DNA of 64,000 bases from contig NC_012804.1 in the NCBI RefSeq assembly GCF_000022365.1, forward strand, positions 310,001-374,000, written 5' to 3'. Positions 37,981 to 64,000 of the stretch are shown piece after piece (positions within the stretch are counted from its first letter, which is position 1; each line of letters opens with the position of its first letter). Below the pieces are notes generated by a model. The model saw only the letters and a list, made by a program, of their open reading frames with translations. It ran no database searches and was not told the DNA's origin. A program made the translations under genes and the position numbers. Origin of the DNA: Thermococcus gammatolerans EJ3 (GTDB taxonomy: Archaea > Methanobacteriota_B > Thermococci > Thermococcales > Thermococcaceae).

Positions 37981-38234
37981 CTATCTTTTTTGTATTACGT
38001 TCCATACCGTGTGTAACTCAGTTGAAGATTTTTCGTTTTCACAGTATTGGCAAACGGCACTTTATGTTATCTTTTTTGCCCAGATTATCCCCATATTTGG
38101 GGAGGTTACCCGCAATTTTGAGGAGATTCTAACTCAGCACGAAAACACTTATAATGTTCTGAGTGTTCATTGTGGTACTGGAATGATGGGATATGATCCC
38201 CGGACCATTAAGATTAGACAAAGGTGATCGAAGA
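37981..38234. other. AT-rich intergenic region before the subtilisin gene
   Basis: The whole gap from 37888 to 38234 has no convincing gene. The open frame at 38009-38227 has no ribosome site and no recognisable fold. CACTTATAATG near 38146-38156 is a weak TATA candidate for the protease gene, giving a leader of about 50 bases. Confidence 0.4.
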
Positions 38235-45644: not shown

Positions 45645-48539
45645 TTATTTCTTCTTAGGAATCAAGGAGGAGAGTAACATTAAGAGTAGAAAAATTCCTA
45701 GACCACAAATAGAGTTTTCAGAGGTATCCTTTGTGGAGCCATCCAACTTGTTAGTATTTTCCCTCGTTGTAACAGATCCCTTTATTTTTGTGTTAGTTGT
45801 TTTGATGGTATTTTTGATTATCTGAGGTTGTGCAATTATAGACACATTCCAGAGATAGAAGTCAGTTTTTATGAGTGACCCACTCGTAACTCCTGCCCCC
45901 AAGACAGCAGTGCCACTGGAGGAATATACATAAAATAGCCATATATACTCATGCCTCTCCTCCAATGGTATTGTATAATTGATTTCTATTGTCCTATTAA
46001 TCGTCTGATTAACAGAATAAAATCCAGTTACGAGACTGTAAGCAAAGGTAATCCACCTGAATGCAGATGTTATTGAGCTAGCTATCTCTTTAGCCATTTC
46101 TTCCCCATAAATTTGTGCAAAGTTCTTTTCAACCGTTTTCTGGAGCAATTCTTTTTTGATATCCTTTAAAACATCGTTCCTTACGTCTTTCAATGTTTCT
46201 TCCCAAATGTCCTCTGGGTAAGCAATGCTAATTAAAGGTGTAATGTTCTCGTAGATTATCTCTCTAGTGTTTAGATCCCTCACACTGGTTACAATGTACA
46301 ACTCACCGTCACTCGCCCCTTCCCCTGCAAGCACGCCTCCTTTAAAACCAAGTATTGTCGCTATGGTGTTAATATCGAGTACAGCCTTAAAAGAATAATT
46401 ATCAGTTTTGGGAGCCTTAAACTTATCTCCCATCATGCACAATCCTGAGGCGAATGCCTTTCCCCCATATACTGCCTTGCTCATGACTACTATACTTCCA
46501 CCACCATTGTAATTTTTCCTTTTGACTGAAGCATTGCAATCTTTTACAATCCATCCCTTATAACATGCTGAACTATTGAGGAAAAATAAGTAGGGAGGTG
46601 TGAACACTATTTTCACATCAGTTGAATTAAACTCGGCAAAAGGTTGCCAATCAAGCTGATCTGTGAGAACATATTTATCGCGATATAGGGTATAAAGCAA
46701 AACACGCACTTTGTAAGAGCCGATTTTAGGTGGAATAAACATAGAAGGCATTAGGAATGGCTTTTCTACTTGTTTTATCAAAATCCCTGTAGTCTCCACG
46801 ACGTGATCCCAAGGAGGAGTTTCGTCATGATCTACAATTACCCTCAATCGTATCCTTTTCACTGTATCCCCTGGATTTTTCACCATTGGAATTGGCTTTG
46901 TGGAGACATTAGGATAATCGGGGTATTTTGTTACTCCAGTTATAAATGGCTCATTTCTGAAAAAGTCAATCCTATCTAGCGTTTTTGACACTGTAAAGTT
47001 CAAAGCACCCCAGAATTCTCTCTTTTTCGTGGTGGGGATATTATAAACTTCCATTTGATAATCTCCCAGAGGCAATTCGGTGACAATTTCCTTATAATTA
47101 CCTCTTGTATACTCTGTGGATATATTAGCTATAATCCGCGAGTGCTTATCATTCCATATTATTACCTCAAATACACCCCCACGCGGGCTTAAGGGTTGTG
47201 AAAAGGCATTATGTATAAATATTCGGATTTGTGTCTTCGTTAATGAGGGCGATGTTTCTGTGGGGGTGGATGACATTTCAAAGACCCTCACGTTATCGTA
47301 AAATACCTCCTGAGCTGGCCACGCACTCGTTAGAGCTATCCCCTGGATATCTTCGGTATTCCAATCATCTTTGGGTAGCTTTACATTGTCAGCTTTTAGG
47401 ACACCGTTTATCCACACACTAATTGTTTTTGTGTCCTTATTTATTATGGCTTTAATATGATACCACTTCTTAGGTTCCCAGCTACCGAGAACAATGTCTC
47501 CCCCATCGGTTTTGATGTATATTATGGCATTTGAGTGATCAAACAAAACACTCCAGTATTGGCCCCAACTCTTACAATCGGAGCAAACAAAACCTGGGTG
47601 ATCCACATATCCCTCTCCTTTACTTTTGAACAAAATATCAAACTCAAATCCGATTATTGTGGCTGAAGAGCTGAATTTTTTCATTACTACGGCTGACCAT
47701 CCAGTGGTCCCTAGTAGTCTAAATGATTTCCTCCCGCTTTTACTGTATTTGTCTGATACATACTGTTGTTCTTTTCCAGCTCCAATATAAAGGACTTCCC
47801 AACCTCCACTCGAAGGAAACTGCCCCACAGAATAGCTCTCAAAATCATCAAAGAAGAGTGTTTGCTCTAGGAATTTGGACTCACTGGCATTCTGGTTTTC
47901 CTGGGTAGTCGGTAGTTTCTTTAGGAGAATGTAATCATAAGCCGTTCGTCCTATCCATGAAGAATACATTCCCACGATAATCAATTGGGACTGGGCAGTA
48001 TCTGTCTCTTCATATGTTGTGATTAGTTGGCCATCGAAGTACATGTACAGTGTATTCCCCTCTTTCTTTAGAGTGAATCTGTGCCATTCATTCATTTTTG
48101 GATTGTAGCCTGGGATTCTGTATATTTTCTTTCCGTCTCTTGAGAACACAAACTCGTGATAGTACCCGTCTCCCCACCAGGCATAAGTGTGCTTTTCCGT
48201 TTTGGCGACCACGTGAAGTGACCCATAACTACGATCTATCCACCTGCCTTTAGATTCGACAATCCAGTTGTATATTCCGGAAGGGATTTTTGAATACAAA
48301 ACATAAGTACCGACGGTTCCATCATTATCGAGAATAACCTCCCCCTCTCTCAGGAATGTGTGGTCTTCCCGTCCAATATTCCATCCTGCTTCTTTCATTT
48401 CTTCGAGAGAATCATATGAAAAGTCATCTCTCCATGTATTCGAGCTTGTGTCTTCAGCTCTGACAATTGTTCCTCCAAGAGGGCACAATGGGAGGAATAA
48501 CATGAATATCAACAGAACGGTAAATAATCCTTTTTTCAT
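45645..48539 (-). CDS. Large secreted LamG-like surface protein with variant CGP-CTERM
   Basis: This is a 964-residue protein. The ATG at 48539 starts a clean signal peptide (KKGLFTVLLIFMLFLPLCPLGG) and follows GGAGGCGGG. Two LamG/concanavalin-like beta-sandwich domains lie at about 35-215 (DDFSYDSLEEMKEAGWNIG) and 230-430 (DDFESYSVGQFPSSGGWEV). A long beta-rich region and a short amphipathic helical part near 820-870 follow. The C-terminus CGLGIFLLLMLLSSLIPKKK resembles CGP-CTERM with Leu for Pro. LamG domains often bind carbohydrate. The gene is much more AT-rich than its neighbours, which suggests lateral origin. Confidence 0.85.
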   Translation of the reverse strand: MKKGLFTVLLIFMLFLPLCPLGGTIVRAEDTSSNTWRDDFSYDSLEEMKEAGWNIGREDHTFLREGEVILDNDGTVGTYVLYSKIPSGIYNWIVESKGRWIDRSYGSLHVVAKTEKHTYAWWGDGYYHEFVFSRDGKKIYRIPGYNPKMNEWHRFTLKKEGNTLYMYFDGQLITTYEETDTAQSQLIIVGMYSSWIGRTAYDYILLKKLPTTQENQNASESKFLEQTLFFDDFESYSVGQFPSSGGWEVLYIGAGKEQQYVSDKYSKSGRKSFRLLGTTGWSAVVMKKFSSSATIIGFEFDILFKSKGEGYVDHPGFVCSDCKSWGQYWSVLFDHSNAIIYIKTDGGDIVLGSWEPKKWYHIKAIINKDTKTISVWINGVLKADNVKLPKDDWNTEDIQGIALTSAWPAQEVFYDNVRVFEMSSTPTETSPSLTKTQIRIFIHNAFSQPLSPRGGVFEVIIWNDKHSRIIANISTEYTRGNYKEIVTELPLGDYQMEVYNIPTTKKREFWGALNFTVSKTLDRIDFFRNEPFITGVTKYPDYPNVSTKPIPMVKNPGDTVKRIRLRVIVDHDETPPWDHVVETTGILIKQVEKPFLMPSMFIPPKIGSYKVRVLLYTLYRDKYVLTDQLDWQPFAEFNSTDVKIVFTPPYLFFLNSSACYKGWIVKDCNASVKRKNYNGGGSIVVMSKAVYGGKAFASGLCMMGDKFKAPKTDNYSFKAVLDINTIATILGFKGGVLAGEGASDGELYIVTSVRDLNTREIIYENITPLISIAYPEDIWEETLKDVRNDVLKDIKKELLQKTVEKNFAQIYGEEMAKEIASSITSAFRWITFAYSLVTGFYSVNQTINRTIEINYTIPLEERHEYIWLFYVYSSSGTAVLGAGVTSGSLIKTDFYLWNVSIIAQPQIIKNTIKTTNTKIKGSVTTRENTNKLDGSTKDTSENSICGLGIFLLLMLLSSLIPKKK

Positions 48540-48695
48540 AAATCCCGCCTCCCACACCTCCTCAATAGATAGTTTGACATAACATTGAACTAAGATGATT
48601 TAAATTTTTCTATATCTCAAATATCCCTCAGTCAGAGGCTGAAAAAGAGAAAATGTTAAAATATCCCAAAGCAAAAATCTAATCGGTGATTGCTA
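48540..48695. promoter_or_regulatory. Divergent promoter region of the surface-protein island
   Basis: This AT-rich spacer of about 155 bases lies between the two signal-peptide genes. GATTTAAATTTTTC (48595-48608) can serve as TATA on the minus strand, giving a leader of about 30 bases. GTTAAAATATCCC near 48655-48667 can serve the plus strand with GGTGAT before the ATG at 48696. Confidence 0.45.
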
Positions 48696-52502: not shown

Positions 52503-52515
52503 CCTCTTTAAAAGC
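52503..52515 (-). promoter_or_regulatory. TATA box of the UPF0282 gene
   Basis: Minus-strand GCTTTTAAAGAGG is centred about 25 bases before the ATG at 52484 and overlaps the end of the DUF917 gene. Confidence 0.55.
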
Positions 52516-53635
52516 TATCCCGTGTGTACACCTTAGCACTTGCGTACTGCAACTTGACGCCTCTTTTAGCCTCTATCGGAACGTATTCCGAGTCGAGGCC
52601 TAGATATTTCGGCCCGAATATTTCGAGTCCCTTGGATGTCCTCCAGATTTTGGGAGCGGAATAACCAACGACTATGTACTCACTTCCTTCCTTGACCTCA
52701 GAATTGATCACGGGCACTCCTTCGGGGGTTACCATTGAAATGAGATCCGGCACCGTCACGTCTATCCTCCCGTTCCTCCACGATGCAAGGTTTTCATTTT
52801 TGAAGGCTATCCTGTAGCTTTCGTTTTTGAACCCTTCAACACCTTCAAGCTCGAACTCTCCAACTGTGAACCCGCCCTTCTCTCTTCTCTCGACCCCAAC
52901 AACAATCCCCCTGAAGAGAACCGTCCAGCCGAGTCCCTCCAGTACCTCCTCAGGATTTTTGCCGTCCTCCCTGGCGATTCTGAGCTCCCTGCCAGTCCGG
53001 AGCGAGCGGGACACAGTACCATGAACAACGGCATTACCCATCTCGGAAACCCTGAAGGGGTGGGATGTAACACCGACGTTCGCCCCAATCACAGAGACTA
53101 TGGCCCTGACTATCTTCTCAGCTTCAGTGTCGTCCTTCACTCTGGAGAAAATAAGCTCGTCTCCGTGAGGCGTTACGAGGGAAAAGGGTGTCATGGGCAT
53201 GCCCAACAGGTGGTACGTGGAGTGCTGCAGCTCCGGAACGGCCCTTCCAGCGGCGTCGGCATCAATGACAACCTTCCCGAGGAGAGCACCCACCACTAGA
53301 GCCCTCGCCGTGTTTGCACCCCCGAGCTCCGTTGCGATGACACCGGCGAAACTCTCTCCAAGATACTCCTCCAATAGCTCAAACGATCGCGTTACCGTGC
53401 CATTTGGGTACGCCGAGGTAACTTCCCTGGGGGAGAGTGAACCGACTGAGTACGGCATGGCAACGATTGCCCCCTTTTTTATCTCCCCGAGTTCCGCCAG
53501 ACGGAATTCCCCTCCCCTCCTCAATGTTTTTTTCACGATATGCCACCCGACCTTGGGGTCCCCTCCTCCCCCGGTTCCGAAGAGGGTTGCGCCGAGGATT
53601 ATATCCCTGAGGTCAGCCTCATCGAGAACCTTCAT
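52508..53635 (-). CDS. DUF917 family protein
   Basis: This 375-residue protein starts LDEADLRDIILGATLFGTGGGGDPKVGWHIV, the hallmark of DUF917 (COG3535). Members are often found near hydantoinase-type genes and are thought to be enzymes, but no reaction is established. Here it overlaps the sugar kinase gene by 17 bases and is last in the transporter operon. A role in opening or modifying a sugar-derived compound is inference from context. Confidence 0.88.
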   Translation of the reverse strand: MKVLDEADLRDIILGATLFGTGGGGDPKVGWHIVKKTLRRGGEFRLAELGEIKKGAIVAMPYSVGSLSPREVTSAYPNGTVTRSFELLEEYLGESFAGVIATELGGANTARALVVGALLGKVVIDADAAGRAVPELQHSTYHLLGMPMTPFSLVTPHGDELIFSRVKDDTEAEKIVRAIVSVIGANVGVTSHPFRVSEMGNAVVHGTVSRSLRTGRELRIAREDGKNPEEVLEGLGWTVLFRGIVVGVERREKGGFTVGEFELEGVEGFKNESYRIAFKNENLASWRNGRIDVTVPDLISMVTPEGVPVINSEVKEGSEYIVVGYSAPKIWRTSKGLEIFGPKYLGLDSEYVPIEAKRGVKLQYASAKVYTRDSF

Positions 53636-54551
53636 GCTCCTTTCCCTCCATGTACTTCAGGGCGACTAAGGCTGCCGCCTTTGCCTCGGGCATTAAGGGC
53701 TCTCTGAGCTCAACTTTCTCCCCGAACTCCTCTTCGAGCCTTCTCGTCAGCAAAGGCCTAAGCAAATCCCTGGAACCGAAGTAGAACCCACCTGTTATCG
53801 CCAGCTTATCCCTCACGCTTGAGAAGCCGAGCCTTCTCACCGCGGCTCTGTAGGTGAGGACTATCTCCTCGACGGCATCTTTTATTATCCCCATTGCAAC
53901 CTCGTCCTTTTCCCTCGCCGCTTTCACGACGTAGGGGGCGAAACCTCCCAGGAGAGTCTTTGGGTTTTCCGACGAGTATATCCTGCCTATTATTCCGTCA
54001 GGGGTGTTTGCCTTGAAGTACTCGAGCATGTACTCCCTCAACCTTGTGCCCCTTCCCCGTCCGTCGTAGGCCCTTAGGGCGGCCCTGATTCCCTCTTTCC
54101 CAACCCAGAACCCGCTTCCTTCATCACCCACAAGGTGTCCCCAACCACCCACCCTGACGGTTTTGCCTTCCTCGTTGATTCCATAAGCAATCGAGCCCGT
54201 TCCGGCGATTAAGACGACGCCTGGGTTAAAGAGAAAGCATGCCACGTGGGCTATTTCGTAGTCCCTCTTCACGATTATTTCTGCCCCGGGAAGGAGCTCC
54301 CCGAGGATTCCCTCTAAGATATCCTTCATTCCCCCCAGTGTTCCAGCGGCGGAAACGCAGGCAACTTTGACCGAACCCCGGAAATTGCCGAGTGCCTCCG
54401 AGACGGCTTTCCTTATTGAAGCCCTCACAGTCTCCATTGGCGAGGCGTTCGGATTTGATGGCCCCCCAAACCCTTCTCCGAGTACTTCCCCGTTCCAATC
54501 AACCAGCACCGCGTGCGTTTTCGTTCCACCGCAGTCGAGCCCTAGGATCAT
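53619..54551 (-). CDS. BadF/BadG-family sugar kinase (N-acetylglucosamine/glucosamine kinase-like)
   Basis: This is a 310-residue actin-fold ATPase. Phosphate 1 loop is ILGLDCGGTKTHAVLVD, phosphate 2 loop is LIAGTGSIAYGI, and GGWGHLVGDEGSGFWVGKEGIRAAL is typical of N-acetylglucosamine kinase-like members. It probably phosphorylates an imported amino sugar. It overlaps DUF917 and follows the membrane-protein gene by 5 bases. Confidence 0.87.
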   Translation of the reverse strand: MILGLDCGGTKTHAVLVDWNGEVLGEGFGGPSNPNASPMETVRASIRKAVSEALGNFRGSVKVACVSAAGTLGGMKDILEGILGELLPGAEIIVKRDYEIAHVACFLFNPGVVLIAGTGSIAYGINEEGKTVRVGGWGHLVGDEGSGFWVGKEGIRAALRAYDGRGRGTRLREYMLEYFKANTPDGIIGRIYSSENPKTLLGGFAPYVVKAAREKDEVAMGIIKDAVEEIVLTYRAAVRRLGFSSVRDKLAITGGFYFGSRDLLRPLLTRRLEEEFGEKVELREPLMPEAKAAALVALKYMEGKEHEGSR

Positions 54552-54556
54552 CTAAC

Positions 54557-55264
54557 TCACCTTCTGCTCCCCATGTACCATGAGACTAAGAGTCCGGAGA
54601 CCCCCACCTGGGCGAGCAGGAGAACCTGGGAAAACACGCCGAACGTTATCTTATCGAAGGACAGGGTAACCGTGAAGAGCGGAGGCAGTGTGAAGCTTAT
54701 CAGCAGGAGGTAATGGAGGTACTTGCCCCTCAACATTGAGATGGTTGCCCCCGCGTTCATAATGCCAAGCAGAATGCCCATGCTCCTCCAGGTTTTCATC
54801 TTGGTTGCGGCGCTGAGTCCCCTGAGGACGTCGGGAGGAAGGGGGAGCTTAAGCCCTTCGTAGGCTGCAATGAGGCCTATGAGCAGAAATATCGAGGCGA
54901 AGAGAAGGGAGATAAGGTTTAGCCTCTTCTCGTCCATCGGGCTGGCTAGGGCAATGCCTACAACGATAATCACCAGATAGAGAGCGCCAATCGCCCACCA
55001 GGTTACGGGAACCGCCCCTATGTATATGGCGGGTGGTCTGAGGAGGATCAGCACGCCAAGTGAAGTCGCCGCTATGGCCCCTGCGAGTGCAGAGTAGCCC
55101 CATCTCATAAGGAGGAACAGGAACAGGCTTATTATGGCCTCGATAAGGATGAAAATTCCGATTGTCACGTCTTTTTGGATATACACTGGGAACATGTCGA
55201 GGAAAACCAATGAGAGCATCAACGCCAGTATGAGTGAAAGTACCTCAAGCCGTGAGAGTCTCAT
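54557..55264 (-). CDS. Seven-helix membrane protein of the sugar operon
   Basis: This is a 235-residue protein. The ATG at 55264 follows GGAGGTGATCTG, so the longer frame upstream is rejected. About seven hydrophobic helices and short loops are seen, starting LEVLSLILALMLSLVFLDMF. No family was recognised. Position between the permease and kinase suggests a transport accessory, perhaps a modulator or extra subunit. Confidence 0.75.
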   Translation of the reverse strand: MRLSRLEVLSLILALMLSLVFLDMFPVYIQKDVTIGIFILIEAIISLFLFLLMRWGYSALAGAIAATSLGVLILLRPPAIYIGAVPVTWWAIGALYLVIIVVGIALASPMDEKRLNLISLLFASIFLLIGLIAAYEGLKLPLPPDVLRGLSAATKMKTWRSMGILLGIMNAGATISMLRGKYLHYLLLISFTLPPLFTVTLSFDKITFGVFSQVLLLAQVGVSGLLVSWYMGSRR

Positions 55265-55268
55265 CAGA

Positions 55269-56162
55269 TCACCTCCTCCTGAGCTTCGGGTTGAGGTAGT
55301 CCTGAAGGGCCTCGCCAAGGCACACGAACGCTATTACAGCCAGCGCTATCATCACACCGGGGACTATGATCCACTGCCACATGCCCTTCATCACTATCAT
55401 CATCATGTTCTTGTTGGCCGTGTACATGACGTAGCCCCAGTCGGGGTTGTGGGGGTCGCCGAGGCCGAGGAAAGTCAGTGACGCCACGGTAACTATGAAG
55501 CCCGCTATCTGAATCGTGGCTCTGGCGAAGAGCAGGGGTATCGTGCTGGGGAGTATGTGCCTGAAGATTATCCTCCCCTTGCTGGCCCCTAGTGCTATCG
55601 CCGCCTCAACGTAGGTTCTGTTCTTTAGCTGGAGTGTCTGTGCCCTCACCATTCTTGCCGTTGAGGGCCACGCGATGAGGGCTATCACGATTATCGTGTA
55701 CCATATGTTCCAGACATTGGAGAAGAGCGCCGCTATGACTATCAAGAGCAGCAGACTGGGAAGCATCATTATGGAGTCCGATACGAAGACGAGGATTTCA
55801 TCGACGATGCCCCCGTAATAGCCTGCAACGGTACCGACGAGTGCCCCTATCGTTACGGTTAGCAGGGCGGCGATGAAACCCACTGCCAGTGAAATCCTCG
55901 TTCCGTAGACTATTTGGGCCCAGATGTCCTTTCCCTCCTGATCTATACCGCACGGATGATCCCACGATGCTGGAACGAATGTTTCATCCGATGTCCAATC
56001 TGGAGTGTATTTCGTAAAAAGGCCCGGGAATAAGGCCATAATGAGGAGGAATGCGAGTATTATTACGCCAACCTTACCCATTTTGTGGTGCCAAACGTAG
56101 CCGGAGACCTCCTTGAGGGACTCCCATTTCTCCTCAAGTTTCTCCCTCAGGGTCATTGCCAT
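55269..56162 (-). CDS. ABC transporter permease (DppC-like) of the sugar operon
   Basis: This 297-residue permease of normal length has TM1 in KVGVIILAFLLIMALFPGLF, then CGIDQEGKDIWAQIVYGTRISLAVGF. The coupling loop is VEAAIALGASKGRIIFRHILP. GGAGGGG precedes the ATG. The family moves peptides or, in hyperthermophiles, also oligosaccharides. The neighbours favour a sugar. Confidence 0.9.
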   Translation of the reverse strand: MAMTLREKLEEKWESLKEVSGYVWHHKMGKVGVIILAFLLIMALFPGLFTKYTPDWTSDETFVPASWDHPCGIDQEGKDIWAQIVYGTRISLAVGFIAALLTVTIGALVGTVAGYYGGIVDEILVFVSDSIMMLPSLLLLIVIAALFSNVWNIWYTIIVIALIAWPSTARMVRAQTLQLKNRTYVEAAIALGASKGRIIFRHILPSTIPLLFARATIQIAGFIVTVASLTFLGLGDPHNPDWGYVMYTANKNMMMIVMKGMWQWIIVPGVMIALAVIAFVCLGEALQDYLNPKLRRR

Positions 56163-56163
56163 T

Positions 56164-57144
56164 TTATCCCCTCCTGATCCTCGGGTCGAGGTAGGCGTAG
56201 GTTATCTCGGCTATCGTGATGGCGAGTATCACGGCGACCGCTATTATGTAAAACGAGGCCAAAACCACCGGGTAATCCTTGTTCCAGATGGCAGTGTATA
56301 TCAGTGTCCCCATGCCCGGATAGTTGAAGACTGTCTCGGTGACAACGGCTCCACCGAAGAGGAAGCCGAGGTCTATTGCCATCATCGTGATTATTGGGGG
56401 CATTATGCTCCTGAGAACGTATCTCTCGATGATGTAGTCTTCCCGTAGGCCCATAGCACGAAATGAGACAACGTAGTCGTTGGTGTATTCCTCGGATACC
56501 ATGTTCCTGATTGTGAGGAGGTACGAGACTGCGTAGATCTTGGAGAGGGCTATGATGGGAAGGAGACTGTGCCACAACCAGTCTATCATGTGATGAAACA
56601 CGTTACGGGGGTGAAGCTCGGATGAGGTTAGAAACGGGAAGAGGCCGAGCTTGAACGCGAAAACGTAAAGCAGAACCATTCCAAGCCAGAACACGGGGAG
56701 GGATCTTATTCCAAGGGTTATCCAGATGATGGCAGATTCCTTGAGCGTGCCCCTGTTTCGGGCGCAGTACAGGCCCAAAATCATTCCGAGCATGGCACCG
56801 AAAAAGTACGCGGCGGTAACGAGGCTGAGGGTGTATGGTAGACGAACCGATATCAAATCGATTATGGGCTTATTGTAAACTGGCGATTTCATCTTGAAGA
56901 GCGAAAACGTGGCCATGCCGTAGAGCATCTTGGCTGCCCCCACGAGGAAGCTGTCCCTGTAACCCCACTCCTTCAGGAGGGCCTCATACTGGGCTTCCGT
57001 TATTTTTCCCTGGTAGAGGTACTGATCGAAGGGCGTTCCCGGGGCAAGTCTTAGGAGGGTGTATATGATAAGGATGACGAAGATGAGGGTGAGAAGCCTG
57101 TGGGCAATTTTAGCGAGCGTGTACGAGACCATTCCCCTTGCCAT
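56164..57144 (-). CDS. ABC transporter permease (DppB-like) of the sugar operon
   Basis: This 326-residue permease has an N-terminal helix LTLIFVILIIYTLLRLAPGTPFDQYL, then six more. The coupling loop is YVVSFRAMGLREDYIIERYVLR. It lies about 48 bases after the binding-protein gene and one base before its partner permease. Confidence 0.9.
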   Translation of the reverse strand: MARGMVSYTLAKIAHRLLTLIFVILIIYTLLRLAPGTPFDQYLYQGKITEAQYEALLKEWGYRDSFLVGAAKMLYGMATFSLFKMKSPVYNKPIIDLISVRLPYTLSLVTAAYFFGAMLGMILGLYCARNRGTLKESAIIWITLGIRSLPVFWLGMVLLYVFAFKLGLFPFLTSSELHPRNVFHHMIDWLWHSLLPIIALSKIYAVSYLLTIRNMVSEEYTNDYVVSFRAMGLREDYIIERYVLRSIMPPIITMMAIDLGFLFGGAVVTETVFNYPGMGTLIYTAIWNKDYPVVLASFYIIAVAVILAITIAEITYAYLDPRIRRG

Positions 57145-57191
57145 GATGGCTCACCACCAGAAGTTCGTCAAAAAAGAAATTAAAGAAGGAC

Positions 57192-58967
57192 TCACCTTCT
57201 CCTCTTCAACAGCGGAAGCACAGCAAAGAGCACCAGTGCCGCCGGTCCACAAAGGCCTTTCTCACCTTTCTTGGTGGTTGAGGTCGATGATGAGGGGGTC
57301 TTTGAGGATGACGTCGTTGTGGAGGATTTTTCTGATGAAGTTGTGGTCGTTGGCTTCTCCGGGTTTCCAAGGAGCGACCAGTAGCCAAGCGTTAAGAACC
57401 TCGGGTTTGGCGCCCAGTCCTTGTAGCGGTCAACCCTGTAGGGCGTTGCGACTATCGGGTGGTAGAGGGCTATGAAGACGACGTTGTTGGCGAGTATCTC
57501 CTCGAGCTTGTGGGCCAGGGCCGGATCGCCGGTCCTCTGGAACTCCTCGAAGGTTTCGTCATAGGTCTTGTTGGAGAAGCCCACCCTGTTGCCCGGGTTG
57601 TCGCTGGTGAACCAGATGAGGTCTGTCGGCTTGTGCGGGACGAAACCAACTATCGCCATGTCCCACGAGCCTGCTCCCCACTTGTCCCAGTAGTCGCCGG
57701 CCTTGTCAACGTCAACCTTGATGCCGACGTCCTTGAGGTAGTTCGCTATTTCATCGCCTATCGCGTCCCTGAAGAACGAGTCTCCGGGGGCCCTCGTGAG
57801 GAGGTATATCTTGAAGGGCTTTCCGTCGGGTGTTTCTCTGTAGCCGTCGCCGTTAACGTCCTTGAAGCCAAGCTCATCGAGTATCTCCTTGGCCTTGTCC
57901 GGATCGTAGGGGTACAGATTCTCCTTGGGCATGTACTTGCAGTACTCGCCGAAGAACGGGCCGAGGAAGCCCATGCTTCCCGCTTTTGCTCCGTCAGTTC
58001 CGTAGTACTTCTGGACTATCTTGTCAACGGGGAGTGCGTAGGCTATTGCCTTTCTGAATTTGAGGTCGTTGTAGGGCCACTTCTTGAAGTTAAACGCCAG
58101 AAGGTGGGTTGACTTTGAGGCCGCGCGGTATATCTTAACGTTTGGATCACCGGAAACCATGTTTTCGAACTCTTTGAGGTACTTTCCAAAGAAGTAGAAG
58201 TAGCCCGCGTCGAGCTCGCCGTTGGCGACCATCATGGCGAACTGGTTCTTGTCGGTCAGAACCTTGAAGATGGCGGTGTCGACCTCAGGCTTCCCGAGGT
58301 AGTAGTCCTTAAAGGCCTGGAGCTTGACGTACTCGCCGGGCTTGATCTCAGCGACCTTGAACGGGCCACAACCTACCAGCTGCTCTGGCTTGTCGAGAGA
58401 GGCTGTCGGATCGGAGATTATGTTCTTGTCCTCCCATATGTGCTTCGGGACTATGTAGAGCGTTGTAAAGGCCATCTCAAGGAACTTGTCGGCGGCTGCG
58501 GACTGGTTGTAGACAAGCTGAACCGTGTACTTGTCAACTACCTTGACTTCCTGAAGGCCGTTGATGATGAGCGTGTCCGGGTTCACGAACTTTGCGGGGT
58601 TGCTCTTGAAGAGCTCGATGGTGAATTTAACGTCCTCTGCGGTTACCTCCTTGCCGTCGTGCCACTTAACGCCCTTCCTTAGGTGGAACGTCAGAACTTT
58701 GTTATCCCCCTCTTTCTTGAACTCCCACTTCTCCGCGAGCGCACCCGTGACCTTAGTACCGCTCTTGTCCCACCTTATGAGTGGCTCGTACACCTTGTCG
58801 AGGATAACGTTACTGTACACTGTGCTTGATGTCAGCGGGTTCAGCGTTTTCCATTTGCCAACCGCGAGGACGAGTTCTGTTCCCGCTGATGCACTGACTC
58901 TTGGCGCTGCAGCGATGCTACTTAAAAACAAAACTGCCAGCAGTAGCGAAAGCCCCTTTCTGTTCAT
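57192..58967 (-). CDS. ABC transporter substrate-binding protein, CGP-CTERM anchored
   Basis: This is a 591-residue family 5 binding protein. A signal peptide (NRKGLSLLLAVLFLSSIAAA) is followed by a family 5 fold (LNPLTSSTVYSNVILDKVYEPL; LRKGVKWHDGKEVTAEDVKFT, which is the family signature). It ends in a Thr/Ser linker and LCGPAALVLFAVLPLLKRRR, a CGP-CTERM signal. It is first in a leftward operon with two permeases, a membrane protein, a kinase and DUF917. No ATPase genes follow. Confidence 0.92.
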   Translation of the reverse strand: MNRKGLSLLLAVLFLSSIAAAPRVSASAGTELVLAVGKWKTLNPLTSSTVYSNVILDKVYEPLIRWDKSGTKVTGALAEKWEFKKEGDNKVLTFHLRKGVKWHDGKEVTAEDVKFTIELFKSNPAKFVNPDTLIINGLQEVKVVDKYTVQLVYNQSAAADKFLEMAFTTLYIVPKHIWEDKNIISDPTASLDKPEQLVGCGPFKVAEIKPGEYVKLQAFKDYYLGKPEVDTAIFKVLTDKNQFAMMVANGELDAGYFYFFGKYLKEFENMVSGDPNVKIYRAASKSTHLLAFNFKKWPYNDLKFRKAIAYALPVDKIVQKYYGTDGAKAGSMGFLGPFFGEYCKYMPKENLYPYDPDKAKEILDELGFKDVNGDGYRETPDGKPFKIYLLTRAPGDSFFRDAIGDEIANYLKDVGIKVDVDKAGDYWDKWGAGSWDMAIVGFVPHKPTDLIWFTSDNPGNRVGFSNKTYDETFEEFQRTGDPALAHKLEEILANNVVFIALYHPIVATPYRVDRYKDWAPNPRFLTLGYWSLLGNPEKPTTTTSSEKSSTTTSSSKTPSSSTSTTKKGEKGLCGPAALVLFAVLPLLKRRR

Positions 58968-59010
58968 AGGGACACCTCCCGCCTATTCTCGTTTATTAAT
59001 GCGCCTTTCG

Positions 59011-59020
59011 CATATATAAG
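59011..59020 (-). promoter_or_regulatory. TATA box of the sugar transport operon
   Basis: Minus-strand CTTATATATG lies about 45 bases before the ATG at 58967, giving a short leader with GGGAGGTGTCCC. Confidence 0.6.
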
Positions 59021-59088
59021 ATTTTTTGTTTCATCGAAGTTTTTTGTTAATAAAAAAGAAAATGCTGATAAAAGATTTTGATTTATGT

Positions 59089-60099
59089 TTAAAATCTTTC
59101 TACGACCTTAACTAGCCCTTCGGGGAAATCCGGGTTCAGATTGTTAAGAACGGCTAGGTAGTAGGAAACTATCTGTATTGGAACTATGAATGGGATCACA
59201 GCGAGTTCTTCGCTCCCGTTCCAAGGAACCCTTACGCAGTTCTCGAAAACATCCGAGTTCGTGAAAACAAGCGGCTCTGCGTTCCTCGATGCGAGGTCGT
59301 CGATAAGCCTCTTGAGCGCGCCGGTTGAACTACCTTCCGGTGCGATGACGATGGGCTGAGGCTTCTCTGGTCCTCGCAACAATGCCACCGGTCCGTGCCT
59401 GAACTCGAGTGCCGGAAAAACCTCGTTGGGAAGGCCGAGGGTTTCCCTGAACTTGAGAGCACCCTCCAGCGCCACTACATAACCCGAGCCCGAGCCGAGG
59501 TGGACGAAGGCCTTCCTGGAGACCAGACTCTCTGCTATCGAGCGGTACTCGTTCTCCCGTGCGAGGACTCTCTCAACGGCTTGTTGTATGGCCATTAGCT
59601 CATTGAGGCCCTCCTCCCTTCCCAGCAGTTTGAGCGCTATTCCCTGGAGGACGAGGGTTATTGCCGAGAACGACTTCGTGGCGGGTATGTTGGGCTCTTC
59701 GCCGTTCGGTATAGCGATTGTCTCATCGGAGACCTCTTCTATCTTCGAGTTTTCGTTGCACGTTACCCCGATGATCGTTGCGCCTTTCTCCCTGGCAACC
59801 TTTACGGCCTCGATGACTTCTCCAGTTTTTCCTGACCTTGACGACGCCACCACGAGTGCGCCTTTTGCAAGCTCTCTGTAATGAAGCATGAACTCCGAGG
59901 CCGGAAATGCGTGGCTCTCAATGGAACTTTTCAGGAGAACGTGGTTGCCTGCCAGGGAGGAGAAGTAGGAACTGCCGCAGCCGATGAAGATAACCCTTCG
60001 GAATCCCTTCTCCGGTGGATCCCATTCCTTGAGGATCTTAAGGGCGGAATCCAGTGCCTGTGGCGTCTCCCTAATCGACCTTATCATGTTGAACTCCAT
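59089..60099 (-). CDS. SIS-domain sugar isomerase/deaminase, GlmD-like
   Basis: This is a 336-residue protein. The ATG at 60099 is preferred over one two codons upstream because AAGGGGG then has normal spacing. Two SIS domains are present: FIGCGSSYFSSLAGNH and VASSRSGKTGEVIEAVK, then FVHLGSGSGYVVALEGALKFRE. EFRHGP and the end NPDFPEGLVKVV match the GlmS isomerase-half and Thermococcus GlmD group. Glucosamine-6-phosphate deamination/isomerisation is the best guess. It has its own promoter. Confidence 0.85.
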   Translation of the reverse strand: MEFNMIRSIRETPQALDSALKILKEWDPPEKGFRRVIFIGCGSSYFSSLAGNHVLLKSSIESHAFPASEFMLHYRELAKGALVVASSRSGKTGEVIEAVKVAREKGATIIGVTCNENSKIEEVSDETIAIPNGEEPNIPATKSFSAITLVLQGIALKLLGREEGLNELMAIQQAVERVLARENEYRSIAESLVSRKAFVHLGSGSGYVVALEGALKFRETLGLPNEVFPALEFRHGPVALLRGPEKPQPIVIAPEGSSTGALKRLIDDLASRNAEPLVFTNSDVFENCVRVPWNGSEELAVIPFIVPIQIVSYYLAVLNNLNPDFPEGLVKVVERF

Positions 60100-60105
60100 T
60101 GGCAT

Positions 60106-60261
60106 CCCCCTTACGGCTTAGGTCACCACGGATTATAAGCGTTTCTAAATTTATTGAGTATAAGAGCAAATTTTAGGGATAACTCTGAATACTTTTAATA
60201 AACAGACAGTTTTTCGAAAACTTTTAAAACATTCCAACGCTAATATAATCGGGGGAACACC
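60106..60261. promoter_or_regulatory. Divergent promoter region of the sugar locus
   Basis: Minus-strand GCTTATAATCC (60130-60140) fits as TATA for the SIS gene. CTTTTAAAAC (60221-60230) fits for the rightward operon starting at 60262. Between them the imperfect palindrome AGTTTTTCGAAAACT (60208-60222) touches the rightward TATA box and could be an operator. Confidence 0.5.
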
Positions 60262-61473
60262 ATGTACAGGGGCACCTGGCTTCATCCCTGGGACTTCACC
60301 GGTTACACCATCGAGAGGATTGCTAAAATCGGCTTTAACCACGTCAGCATGGCTGTTAGATACTTTGAGGAGAGACAGGACTGGCCCGGTCCAAACATAA
60401 TCTTTCAAAACCCCGGGAGAAGGGCTTACACGGCCGAAGAAAACGCCGTTTACTGGGACGCTGACGGGAATAGGTATTCTCATCTGCCCCCTTACCTGAG
60501 ACCCGAAAGATCGAGGGAAGCGAAGGGAGACATCGTGGAGAGGTTCGTCAATGCCTGTGAGGAGAACTCCCTAAAGAGCGTCCTCTGGTTTCCCACGCTG
60601 AGATGGGAGAAGGCCGTGAGGGACGACATAGGGGTTGGCATGAAGGACGTCTACGGCTCCCACCCCGGCTACAAGCGAATGTTCCTCTGCCCCTCCAACC
60701 CCCTCGTGAGGGAAGCGCTCGAACTGATGGTTGAAGAACTCTCCGAAAAGTACGACTTCGACGAGTTTGAGTTTGACTTTATCAGATACCCAGAGGTGCC
60801 CTCAACACACGGCACGCCTCTTTTAAGTCTGGCTCTTTCCCCGTGCTTCTGCAAATACTGTCAGGAGAGGGCCAGGGATTACGGGGTTGACCTCGAAGAG
60901 GTTAAGCGGGAGCTCAAAGAGCTCGTGGAGTGGCACGTTGATTACCTCTCGAACACGCCTTACTGCACCGATGAGGATTACCTGCAGGCAGTTCACAGCG
61001 AGCTTGCTAGGTTTCTCCTTGAGGGTGACCTCGTGAAGAAGTGGATTAAGTTCAGGGCGGAGGTGATAGCCGACCTACTGAAAGACCTCTCCAAGATAGT
61101 CAGGAGGAACAATCCGGGGGCGAAGGTAACCGCCGACCTGTATCCTCCATCGGGCTCGTGGCTCCTCGGACAGGATTACAAAACGATCTCCAAAATCGTG
61201 GACGGGGTTAAGGTTATGATATACACGAAGCCCTTCGGGAAGTCGGTGTGCAGGATTCCCTACGAGTCGAGGCTCGCGAGGAAGCTTCTCGGCAAAAAGC
61301 TCCTCGTCATAGGGCTCGCCTCCTGGCCACCCATGACCCCGGAGGACATCGAAAGGGAGTTCAGGCTCGTCCTCTCTTCTCCCGCCGATGGCGTCGGTTT
61401 CTATTCTTACGGGTGGACGCCCGATGGGAACCTTCTTACGATTGAAAGACTCTTCAGGGAGGTGGGAACATGA
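60262..61473 (+). CDS. TIM-barrel putative glycosidase (GHL/DUF4015-like)
   Basis: This 403-residue cytoplasmic protein has no signal peptide. A barrel start (YRGTWLHPWDFTGYTIERIAKIGFNHV) is followed by an acidic strand FDEFEFDFIRYPE, like the D-x-IRYP motif of GHL-type hydrolases. LSPCFCKYCQERA has three clustered cysteines that may bind zinc. Later ADLYPPSGSWL and GVGFYSYGWTP close the barrel. It probably acts on an imported oligosaccharide. It is first gene of a three-gene operon and its stop overlaps the next start. Confidence 0.72.
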   Translation: MYRGTWLHPWDFTGYTIERIAKIGFNHVSMAVRYFEERQDWPGPNIIFQNPGRRAYTAEENAVYWDADGNRYSHLPPYLRPERSREAKGDIVERFVNACEENSLKSVLWFPTLRWEKAVRDDIGVGMKDVYGSHPGYKRMFLCPSNPLVREALELMVEELSEKYDFDEFEFDFIRYPEVPSTHGTPLLSLALSPCFCKYCQERARDYGVDLEEVKRELKELVEWHVDYLSNTPYCTDEDYLQAVHSELARFLLEGDLVKKWIKFRAEVIADLLKDLSKIVRRNNPGAKVTADLYPPSGSWLLGQDYKTISKIVDGVKVMIYTKPFGKSVCRIPYESRLARKLLGKKLLVIGLASWPPMTPEDIEREFRLVLSSPADGVGFYSYGWTPDGNLLTIERLFREVGT

Positions 61474-62267
61474 AGTTCGGTATCAACTGCTGGAGTTTTC
61501 CGAAGACCCTGCCAGTTGAGGAGGCCGTAAAGGCCGCCGGCAGGATTGGTTACGAGGGCTATGAAGTTGGTCTCTCGATCGAGGATTTTGAAGCCTTTGG
61601 CAAGCCCGAGTTCAAGGAGAAGTTCAGAAAGATAAGGGAGGTCGCCGAGAGTTGTAAGGTGGAGATACCGAGCGTTGCAACGGGCCTCTTCTGGAGGTTC
61701 AACCCGCTGACGGACCAGGAGAAGGCGTTGAAGGTCGTCGAGGCCGAGTGCGAAGCCGCTTCGGAGCTCGGCGCGAGGCTTATTCTCGTCGTGCCCGGGA
61801 GTGGAGTCCCGGAGCTTTCCTACGAGGAGCACTTCAAGAGGGCGGCAGAGTTCGGAAGGAAGGCCTCTGAGATAGCCGAGGACTATGGGATAAAAATCGG
61901 CCTCGAAAACGTCTGGAACAGGGTCTTCGCCGGGCCACTGGAGTTCAAGAGACTTCTGGATGAGATAGAGGAGGACAACGTTGGGGCCTACTTTGACGCC
62001 GGCAACACCCTGCCCCACTCGCTCCCGGAGCACTGGATAGACGTTTTAGGGGACAAGATCTTCCAGGTTCACGTTAAGGACTTCAACCTCGTGGAGCTCA
62101 AGTTTGGAATCCCGCTGAGCGGTAGCGTCAACTGGACGGCCGTTAGGGAGGCCCTAGAAAGGATTGGCTACGATGGCTACGTCCTGCCGGAGGTTCCGCC
62201 CTACCTCGGCGACCCGCTCAAAGCGGCTGAAGACTCTCTGACGTCCCTGAGAAAGATATTCGGGTGA
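61470..62267 (+). CDS. Sugar phosphate isomerase/epimerase (xylose isomerase-like TIM barrel)
   Basis: This 265-residue protein's metal ligands can be read as Glu in IGLENVWNR, Asp in YFDAGNTLP, His in VHVKDFN and Glu in LPEVPPY. These are standard for AP-endonuclease-2-like sugar isomerases and epimerases. ATGA overlap joins it to the glycosidase-like gene. The substrate is unknown. Confidence 0.87.
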   Translation: MKFGINCWSFPKTLPVEEAVKAAGRIGYEGYEVGLSIEDFEAFGKPEFKEKFRKIREVAESCKVEIPSVATGLFWRFNPLTDQEKALKVVEAECEAASELGARLILVVPGSGVPELSYEEHFKRAAEFGRKASEIAEDYGIKIGLENVWNRVFAGPLEFKRLLDEIEEDNVGAYFDAGNTLPHSLPEHWIDVLGDKIFQVHVKDFNLVELKFGIPLSGSVNWTAVREALERIGYDGYVLPEVPPYLGDPLKAAEDSLTSLRKIFG

Positions 62268-62272
62268 TGGGT

Positions 62273-63232
62273 ATGAGGATAGCCCTCATCGGAGCGGGCA
62301 ATATGGGGAGTCTCCACCTCAAGGTCATGAAAATGGCGGGGGTCGAGATAGCAGGGGTCTGTGACGTAAAGGACGAGGTTCTGAGAAAGGTAAAGGAGGA
62401 ATACGGCGTTCCTGTTTACAAGGACTACCAGGAGATGCTCGAAAAGGAGAGCCCGGACGGGGTTATAATCGCAACACCCCCACACCTCCACAGGGAGCAG
62501 GCGATATACGCCCTCAAGAAGGGCTACTACGTTCTCCTCGAGAAGCCGATGGGCGCAAACCTTCAGGACGCGAGGGCCATATACAGGCGCGCGAGGGGCA
62601 CGAACAGGCTAATGGTGGCGTTCAGCCTCCGCTTCCACGGGCTCTTCATGAAGGTCAAGGACTACCTTGAGAGGGACCTTGGGGACATACTCTTCCAGTG
62701 GCACGTGGCTCTCGGCAGGACGCCGGTCAACGAGTGGATAAAGGACTCCCGGAAGAGCGGGGGAATGATAAACGAGAACGCCGTCCACGTTGTCTATTAC
62801 TTCCTCTGGTACGCGGGCGACATAAAGAAGGTCTACGGAAGGTGCTGGACCCTCGAGGAAGATGCCACTATTGAGGACAACGCCGCGGTCACCTTCGTCC
62901 ACAGGAACGGCGCGGTCTCGACGCTCATGCAGACTTGGACGGCCCAGCACCGCTGGAGGAAGTGGGGACTTCAGGCAACGAACGGCACAGTGACCGTTGA
63001 CGGCTACCTCGGCGGGGACTACAAGATATCAACGCGGGAGATGAGGGTTCTCGAGGAGGGGAACTTCAGCGAAGAGGTCGAGCTCATGTACCTCAGACAG
63101 CTCAAACACTTCCTCCACTGCATAGAGACCGGAGAAAAGCCCGTTGTCAATGAGGAGGACGGTCTGAAGGTACACAGGGCAGTTCAGGCCCTCTATCGCT
63201 CGTCCCGTCTCGACAGGATGGTTCCCCTGTGA
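62273..63232 (+). CDS. Gfo/Idh/MocA family oxidoreductase
   Basis: This 319-residue NAD(P)-dependent enzyme acts on sugars or polyols. The Rossmann motif is IALIGAGNMGSLH, and LLEKPMGANLQDA holds the family Glu-Lys-Pro. The C-terminal half has GGMINENAVHVVYYFLWY with the usual catalytic His. The ATG at 62273 follows GGGTGATGG, 5 bases after the previous stop. Confidence 0.9.
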   Translation: MRIALIGAGNMGSLHLKVMKMAGVEIAGVCDVKDEVLRKVKEEYGVPVYKDYQEMLEKESPDGVIIATPPHLHREQAIYALKKGYYVLLEKPMGANLQDARAIYRRARGTNRLMVAFSLRFHGLFMKVKDYLERDLGDILFQWHVALGRTPVNEWIKDSRKSGGMINENAVHVVYYFLWYAGDIKKVYGRCWTLEEDATIEDNAAVTFVHRNGAVSTLMQTWTAQHRWRKWGLQATNGTVTVDGYLGGDYKISTREMRVLEEGNFSEEVELMYLRQLKHFLHCIETGEKPVVNEEDGLKVHRAVQALYRSSRLDRMVPL

Positions 63233-63250
63233 GACTCCCCTTGCAAAATC

Positions 63251-63260
63251 TTTTTATATA
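63251..63260 (+). promoter_or_regulatory. TATA box of the Lrp-type regulator
   Basis: CTTTTTATATATCC separates the regulator from the upstream operon. It predicts a start near 63280 and a leader of about 45 bases. Confidence 0.55.
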
Positions 63261-63328
63261 TCCTTATGAACAAATCGGTAAAAATCAGAGGCATCTAATG
63301 GCACTGGAAAGCTAGGGGGTGAAAAAAT

Positions 63329-63865
63329 TTGCCAGACTCTAAGGACGCCAAGTACAAGAAGGAACTTGAGTTCTATAGGGATATCCTGAAGGACTACCTC
63401 GACGAGGTTGACCTTCTCATCTGGCTGGCCCTCCGGGACAACGGCAGAATCTCTGACACCGAGCTTGCGAAGATAGCCAACGTCTCCGTGCCTACTGCAA
63501 GAAGGAGGAGGATGGCCCTTGAGGAGAAGGGCATAATCCGCGTGAGGGGCTTTCTGGTCTTTGACAGGCTCAAGCTCTCATCGGCGGACGTGCTCGTAAA
63601 GTTCAGGCCGGGTTTTTCCAAGGAGACGGTCAGAGATTTCATAGCGAGGGCCCTCGATGAGCCAAGGATATACGAGATAAGCGAGTACATCGGAGAGTAC
63701 GACGTCCTCCTCAGGTTCTTTGAAAAGGACTACAAGACCCTCAAGGAGAAGATAGAGGAGTTCCTCACCGAGAACGGGGATATAGTGGAACGCTACACAG
63801 TGCTCGCCAATATCTACACGCCCAAAATATTCTCAGAACTCGTCGATGAGAACAGAGAAGAATAA
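63329..63865 (+). CDS. Lrp/AsnC-type transcriptional regulator (TTG start)
   Basis: This is a 178-residue protein. The TTG at 63329 is chosen because GGGGGTGA lies 6 bases before it and no ATG fits. An N-terminal helix precedes the HTH (LIWLALRDNGRISDTELAKIANVSVPTARRRRMALEEKGI). The C-terminal ferredoxin-like effector domain is at about 85-165. It is adjacent to the sugar genes and is a candidate local regulator. Confidence 0.85.
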   Translation: MPDSKDAKYKKELEFYRDILKDYLDEVDLLIWLALRDNGRISDTELAKIANVSVPTARRRRMALEEKGIIRVRGFLVFDRLKLSSADVLVKFRPGFSKETVRDFIARALDEPRIYEISEYIGEYDVLLRFFEKDYKTLKEKIEEFLTENGDIVERYTVLANIYTPKIFSELVDENREE

Positions 63866-63868
63866 AAA

Positions 63869-64000
63869 TCAGCCTTCAAAAACCCTCCTTCCAGCCACGT
63901 AGGTTTCCTCAACCTCAAGTTTTTCGTTTAGAACGACGAAGTCAGCCCTGCTTCCGGGCCTTATGATGCCGATGTCCTCCCTGCCCAGGGCCCTGGCCGG
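63869..64000 (-). CDS. NagA-like amidohydrolase, C-terminal part only
   Basis: Only the last 43 codons are inside the window. They read ARALGREDIGIIRPGSRADFVVLNEKLEVEETYVAGRRVF, the closing beta domain typical of N-acetylglucosamine-6-phosphate deacetylase and related amidohydrolases. The stop is 3 bases from that of the convergent Lrp gene. Its presence supports an amino-sugar function for the locus. Confidence 0.65.
   Translation of the reverse strand, partial: PARALGREDIGIIRPGSRADFVVLNEKLEVEETYVAGRRVFEG

Follow-up and report, generated by a model that had tools for sequence, protein, structure and literature searches.

A gene of the DUF917 family in Thermococcus gammatolerans begins inside the coding sequence of a BadF-type sugar kinase, which raises the question of whether its product is a dedicated partner of that kinase or has another place in the pathway around it. 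Both genes lie in the window, the 64,000-nucleotide stretch of DNA that was analysed, where a minus-strand operon runs in the order double-SIS protein, solute-binding protein, two permeases, membrane-like protein, kinase and DUF917, facing a divergent arm on the plus strand. From the kinase onward these genes belong to one conserved island of 16 genes (window 53619-64000 plus the adjoining locus L028:1-7969), of which the same 16 are present in six genomes. The features are as follows.

52508..53635, minus strand: DUF917 (S-Me-THD-like) protein, 375 aa (PF06032, 135.4 bits; PF20906, 184.2 bits)
53619..53635, minus strand: overlap of the DUF917 start with the kinase stop, exactly 17 nt, from the sequence
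53619..54551, minus strand: BadF-type amino-sugar kinase, 310 aa, NagK/MurK-like (PF01869)
54557..55276, minus strand: membrane-like protein (by sequence), about 240 aa, no family match; common to all six islands
55269..56162, minus strand: Dpp/Opp permease C (PF00528, OppC_N)
56164..57144, minus strand: Dpp/Opp permease B (PF00528)
57192..58967, minus strand: Dpp/Opp-type solute-binding protein with a CGP-CTERM anchor (PF00496, TIGR04288)
59089..60105, minus strand: double-SIS protein, probable glucosamine-6-phosphate deaminase, GlmD/NagB-II-like (PF01380)
60262..61473, plus strand: glycosidase-like protein (sub-cut-off matches to GHL10 and DUF4015); conserved in each of the six islands
61470..62267, plus strand: xylose-isomerase-like TIM barrel, epimerase-like (PF01261)
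62264..63232, plus strand: Gfo/Idh/MocA oxidoreductase (PF01408)
63329..63865, plus strand: AsnC-type regulator (PF13412/PF13404)
63869..64000, minus strand, continuing in L028 (G000:C1:374001 on): 3' part of NagA, whole protein 384 aa (TIGR00221)

The first-pass annotation had placed the DUF917 start 17 bases within the kinase gene, and both reading frames were indeed recovered at those positions. A GGAGG sequence within the final kinase codons precedes the DUF917 ATG by 9 nt. Translation very likely does begin at the 53635 ATG, since M(K/R)VL occurs at the same position in seven homologs. The protein, the sole product of a PF06032 gene in the T. gammatolerans genome, scores above the gathering threshold (27) for each of the two Pfam domains of the S-Me-THD-like family. 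The two genes are likely cotranscribed and DUF917 may be translationally coupled to the kinase. However, 13 of the 39 same-strand neighbouring pairs in the 64-kb window overlap, a count that uses longest-ORF starts and is hence an overestimate, and one other pair also overlaps by 17 nt; the overlap alone is therefore ordinary. The GC content (0.545) and GC3 (0.62) of DUF917 are near the values of its operon and thus give no composition signal of recent transfer.

The kinase matches PF01869 over its full length (residues 3-290; 124.5 bits against a gathering score of 31.5), and its closest solved relatives by sequence are the MurNAc/GlcNAc kinase 8zo3 (E 6.8e-43), itself of the BadF type and the best of them, the hexokinase 2e2n and the GlcNAc kinases 2ch5/2ch6. 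It scores 125.3 bits with the NagK_SO3507 equivalog model (NF046058), short of the cut-off of 370, and its specificity for GlcNAc is putative. The double-SIS protein, whose closest solved structure is 2cb0 (E 7.8e-30), likewise falls under the equivalog cut-offs for GlmD (NF041128; 113.9 vs 580) and NagB-II (NF046059; 95.7 vs 430), while NagA passes the TIGR00221 equivalog cut-off (333.2 vs 225.65 bits) on 341 of its 384 aa. Past NagA, outside the window, the island continues with a PRK02947 SIS protein, a GNAT protein, an M14 peptidase, a ceramidase-like protein and a 909-aa glycosidase-like protein with a signal-peptide-like stretch at its start.

No transporter ATPase gene was seen among the genes of the minus operon; the membrane-like protein at 54557-55276 occupies the spot where a Dpp/Opp ATPase might be expected. 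The 2009 genome paper classes a Dpp/Opp transporter, tg0383-385, as a peptide importer exclusive to T. gammatolerans (PMC2718504), and these are very likely the permease and solute-binding protein genes at 55269-58967. The subtilisin-like protease tg0368, named in that paper, would fit by gene count the window subtilase at 38193; counting from tg0368 and tg0383-385, DUF917 would be about tg0380.

BadF is present in 6 of 94 Thermococcaceae genomes and M14 in 6 of 94, and these are the identical six (T. gammatolerans, G000, together with G020, G005, G007, G089 and G090), while PF06032 occurs in 19 of the 94 and in 19 of 115 genomes across the phylum. DUF917 lies inside the island in three of the six (G000, G089 and G090), at two places and each time as the last gene of a run: behind the kinase in G000 only, and between the AsnC regulator and NagA in G089 and G090. 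It is missing from the islands of G020, G005 and G007; anywhere in the genome, PF06032 is absent from G020 and G007, and G005 has one distant member outside the island. A seventh genome, G087, contains broken remnants of plus-arm island genes and a truncated DUF917, which have decayed together. Thus DUF917 is found repeatedly in the island but at a varying place; its association with the island is recurrent, that with the kinase is not. The positions and the optional presence of DUF917, like the identities of the genes and the conservation of the island, are direct observations. In the G087 remnant (L042:9437-18373), the oxidoreductase and glycosidase-like genes are split, and genes for a MalK-type sugar transporter intervene.

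The survey was extended beyond the family by a search with the DUF917 alignment as query, which found 189 relatives. One hundred DUF917 loci, 20 from Thermococcaceae and 80 of the 189 relatives, were scored with profiles built on the genes of the island; seven of the 80 coincide with loci of the Thermococcaceae group, leaving 93 distinct loci, and many of the 100 are cut by contig ends, making the neighbour counts lower bounds. At E <=1e-5, an Asp/Glu/hydantoin racemase was found at 55 of the 100 loci, permease C at 46, permease B at 45, the solute-binding protein at 44 and HyuA at 11. The BadF profile matched at none of the 100 at this threshold, and on relaxation to E <=10 matched HyuA-type proteins only. 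For 50 of the 80 loci, the genome was scanned with the Pfam models, which gave 143 PF06032 matches, with at least one in every genome. Among the PF01869 matches listed (E to about 5e-4), 41 of these 50 genomes are represented, 38 of them over the cut-off, and none has a full-length BadF within 5 kb of DUF917. Six DUF917 genes have a listed PF01869 match closer than 5 kb, but each of these matches spans just positions 1-78 or so of the 271 in the model and falls in a frame of 524-568 aa; we read these frames as HyuA-type proteins.

A conserved kinase-DUF917 module was accordingly rejected: the pair occurs in one of 94 Thermococcaceae genomes, in 0 of 50 others among the matches listed, and at 0 of 100 loci. 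The first-pass annotation had proposed a tight link between the two genes and had named a pairing limited to one strain as the outcome that would speak against it, and T. gammatolerans alone is where the survey placed the pair. The amino-sugar context which it had assigned to DUF917 fared better, recurring in the three of six intact islands that carry the gene and in the decayed pair of G087.

A pairing confined to one genome could also mean that DUF917 arrived as a passenger: one gene of a racemase/Dpp-type cluster that landed behind the kinase and is functionally unrelated to the island, and its relatives do live in racemase/transporter clusters. The close relative G020, whose island genes are 80-97% identical to those of the window, has no DUF917; there the kinase is followed directly by the gene that follows DUF917 in T. 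gammatolerans. The last DUF917 codons and the stop align to the G020 sequence upstream of this next gene, including TTTTAAAG, a plausible TATA box 29 nt ahead of its ATG, and in T. gammatolerans the DUF917 stop codon shares bases with the TATA-like TTTTAAA of the next gene. The C-terminal tail of DUF917 (about 17-19 residues, residues 359-375 with pLDDT <50), which has no counterpart in the aligned homologs, is explained by this run-on into upstream sequence, a point in favour of a passenger. On the other hand, DUF917 recurs in the islands of G089 and G090, and its frame is intact over 375 codons, with 34 of the 35 columns that are at least 95% identical in 95 relatives retained, the exception being G237W, beside a gap. 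Furthermore, G020 keeps GGAGG and ATG at the DUF917 start position and briefly matches the 3' end of DUF917, with a score of 10 that 4.7% of shuffles attain within the last 110 nt and 35% over the whole gene. These remnants slightly, though not decisively, favour a loss in G020 over a recent gain in T. gammatolerans. We therefore consider the passenger explanation possible, though rather doubtful.

Descent is compatible with more than one history. The T. gammatolerans DUF917, those of the racemase-Dpp clusters and the in-island ones of G089 and G090 form one archaeal clade (100/100), within which the T. gammatolerans copy, 46-48% identical to the proteins of G089 and G090, sits on a long branch (0.64-0.73) with no firm place: neither its grouping with the in-island and racemase-free proteins (p-AU 0.356) nor with the rest (p-AU 0.317) was rejected. 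Since placement with G089 and G090 is not firm, the in-island DUF917 genes may represent two separate events. Among columns invariant in 17 archaeal relatives, 7 of 90 are altered in the T. gammatolerans protein (0-3 in the others, with one at 9). Together with the retention of 34 of 35 family-wide columns, this indicates a protein that looks intact but diverged, and the long branch and the seven departures suggest that its function may have changed or relaxed.

The predicted structure of DUF917 (pLDDT 87.9) aligned with VIA-align to CV_3147 (2o3i) over 330 residues (Z 39.6, rmsd 2.2). The two proteins are 27% identical and have in common both domains, a whole-length fold, a conserved G-rich loop and acidic residues, whereas the T. 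gammatolerans protein differs in its extra C-terminal tail and long branch. CV_3147 was deposited as a hypothetical protein, and the fold search gave nothing else above Z 4.0, which left no enzyme of known activity as a template for the active site. Structure prediction, which the annotation had put forward as a way to the active site, thus yielded a fold relative but not the catalytic residues.

The nearest named functions in the family are the thiohydantoin desulfurases (NCBIfam equivalogs), which are linked to ergothioneine breakdown. A literature search for thiohydantoin desulfurase, alone or with ergothioneine, found nothing. DUF917 could be a desulfurase of this type, unrelated to amino sugars and cotranscribed with the kinase by chance, these being the sole named activities in the family. 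However, it scores 65.2 bits with the S-methyl thiohydantoin desulfurase model (NF058532) against a cut-off of 450, and 62.4 with the thiohydantoin desulfurase model (NF058529) against 440, and the island has no racemase or hydantoinase neighbour; we judge this assignment very unlikely. A 2024 paper describes the DUF917 family as uncharacterised and possibly hydantoinases (PMC11055893). This view and the named activities make a ring-opening enzyme the most likely class, and DUF917 probably hydrolyses a small ring, either a cyclic amide or a ureide.

Among the island genes, no Asp/Glu/hydantoin racemase or HyuA lies beside the T. gammatolerans DUF917, so a hydantoin-type substrate can be argued for only by way of its relatives; the three PF01177 matches in the genome are all about 0.9-1.0 Mb away. 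The racemase-Dpp clusters of Thermococcales and Thermoplasmata (L031-L039, L065-L068) contain a DUF917 that is 56-60% identical and belongs to the same archaeal clade, but in L031-L039 Asp/Glu racemases stand on both sides of it in nine of nine cases, where the T. gammatolerans gene has the kinase instead. In a DHVE2 archaeon (L065:3464-11089), five DUF917 genes are packed into 8 kb, and Asp/Glu racemases are close by.

A set of six DUF917 genes (T. gammatolerans, L040 and L042-L045) stands apart from racemases, which leaves room for another substrate. Since the operon context is one of amino sugars, that substrate might be an amino sugar in its cyclic amide or lactam form, as the first-pass annotation had ventured, which the kinase would produce or consume. 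Yet five of the six islands have no DUF917 beside the kinase and three have none at all, no lactam-forming enzyme was found, and the family data contain no pointer to sugars, which makes this proposal improbable. A broader version, in which the racemase-free proteins (T. gammatolerans, G089, G090, G087, G040 and G071) have left hydantoin chemistry and open a cyclic amide that comes from an amino sugar or from its peptide part, as an optional step in a bacterial-style GlcNAc/MurNAc pathway of Thermococcales, is one to which we attach little weight. DUF917 is widespread and almost without biochemistry, and a copy outside the racemase context offers a handle on its substrate range.

The data presented above have led us to propose that DUF917 serves an amino-sugar scavenging island as an optional accessory enzyme, a ring-opening hydrolase rather than a dedicated kinase partner, an interpretation that carries about half of our confidence. 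The enzyme activities and the substrate in this model are what we infer from the gene families. Secreted and cytosolic glycosidase-like enzymes would free small amino-sugar compounds, which would be taken up by the Dpp/Opp-type transporter; the BadF kinase would phosphorylate GlcNAc (or MurNAc), NagA would remove the acetyl group of GlcNAc-6-P to give GlcN-6-P, and the double-SIS enzyme would deaminate this to Fru-6-P. We read the sugar part as this series, from GlcNAc (or MurNAc) through GlcNAc-6-P and GlcN-6-P to Fru-6-P, because of NagA and of the kinase's MurNAc/GlcNAc kinase relatives. DUF917 would open a small, hydantoin-like cyclic amide or ureide ring derived from an amino acid, either the non-sugar part of the same food or a by-product of it.

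Judged by its gene content, the island resembles a route for GlcNAc or muropeptides of the bacterial kind. As in the bacterial NagK-NagA-NagB pathway, a kinase, a NagA that passes its cut-off and a deaminase-like SIS protein occur together, but the island has M14, ceramidase-like, GNAT and PRK02947 SIS genes in addition. The known Thermococcus chitin route employs Dac, GlmA, GlmD and a GlcN kinase, whereas the island has a NagK-like kinase and NagA set instead. A literature search, judged by titles, found no description of Thermococcales with a route through murein or a GlcNAc kinase. From the island, it seems that some Thermococcales may use GlcNAc by a NagK-NagA route, a bacterial-style set in an archaeon.

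The PRK02947 SIS protein (L028:1025-1768) lies one base from NagA and adjoins it in all six islands. It is related to Streptomyces NagS, a GlcNAc-6-P dehydratase (E 8e-42 to 9eol). According to the NagS study (PMC12680351), H53, R64, E94 and D179 of the S. coelicolor enzyme are essential and S91 and N228 important, and three of three distant homologs (26-36% identity) were inactive or had negligible activity. In our own reading of the alignment, the four essential residues are kept, while S91 is replaced by Thr and N228 by His; with these two positions altered and the distant homologs inactive in that study, NagS activity is not claimed for the archaeal protein. Elsewhere in the window, a 970-aa protein with a weak 3-keto-disaccharide hydrolase/laminin-G match (45645-48557) lies near the island, which includes a Gfo/Idh/MocA oxidoreductase.
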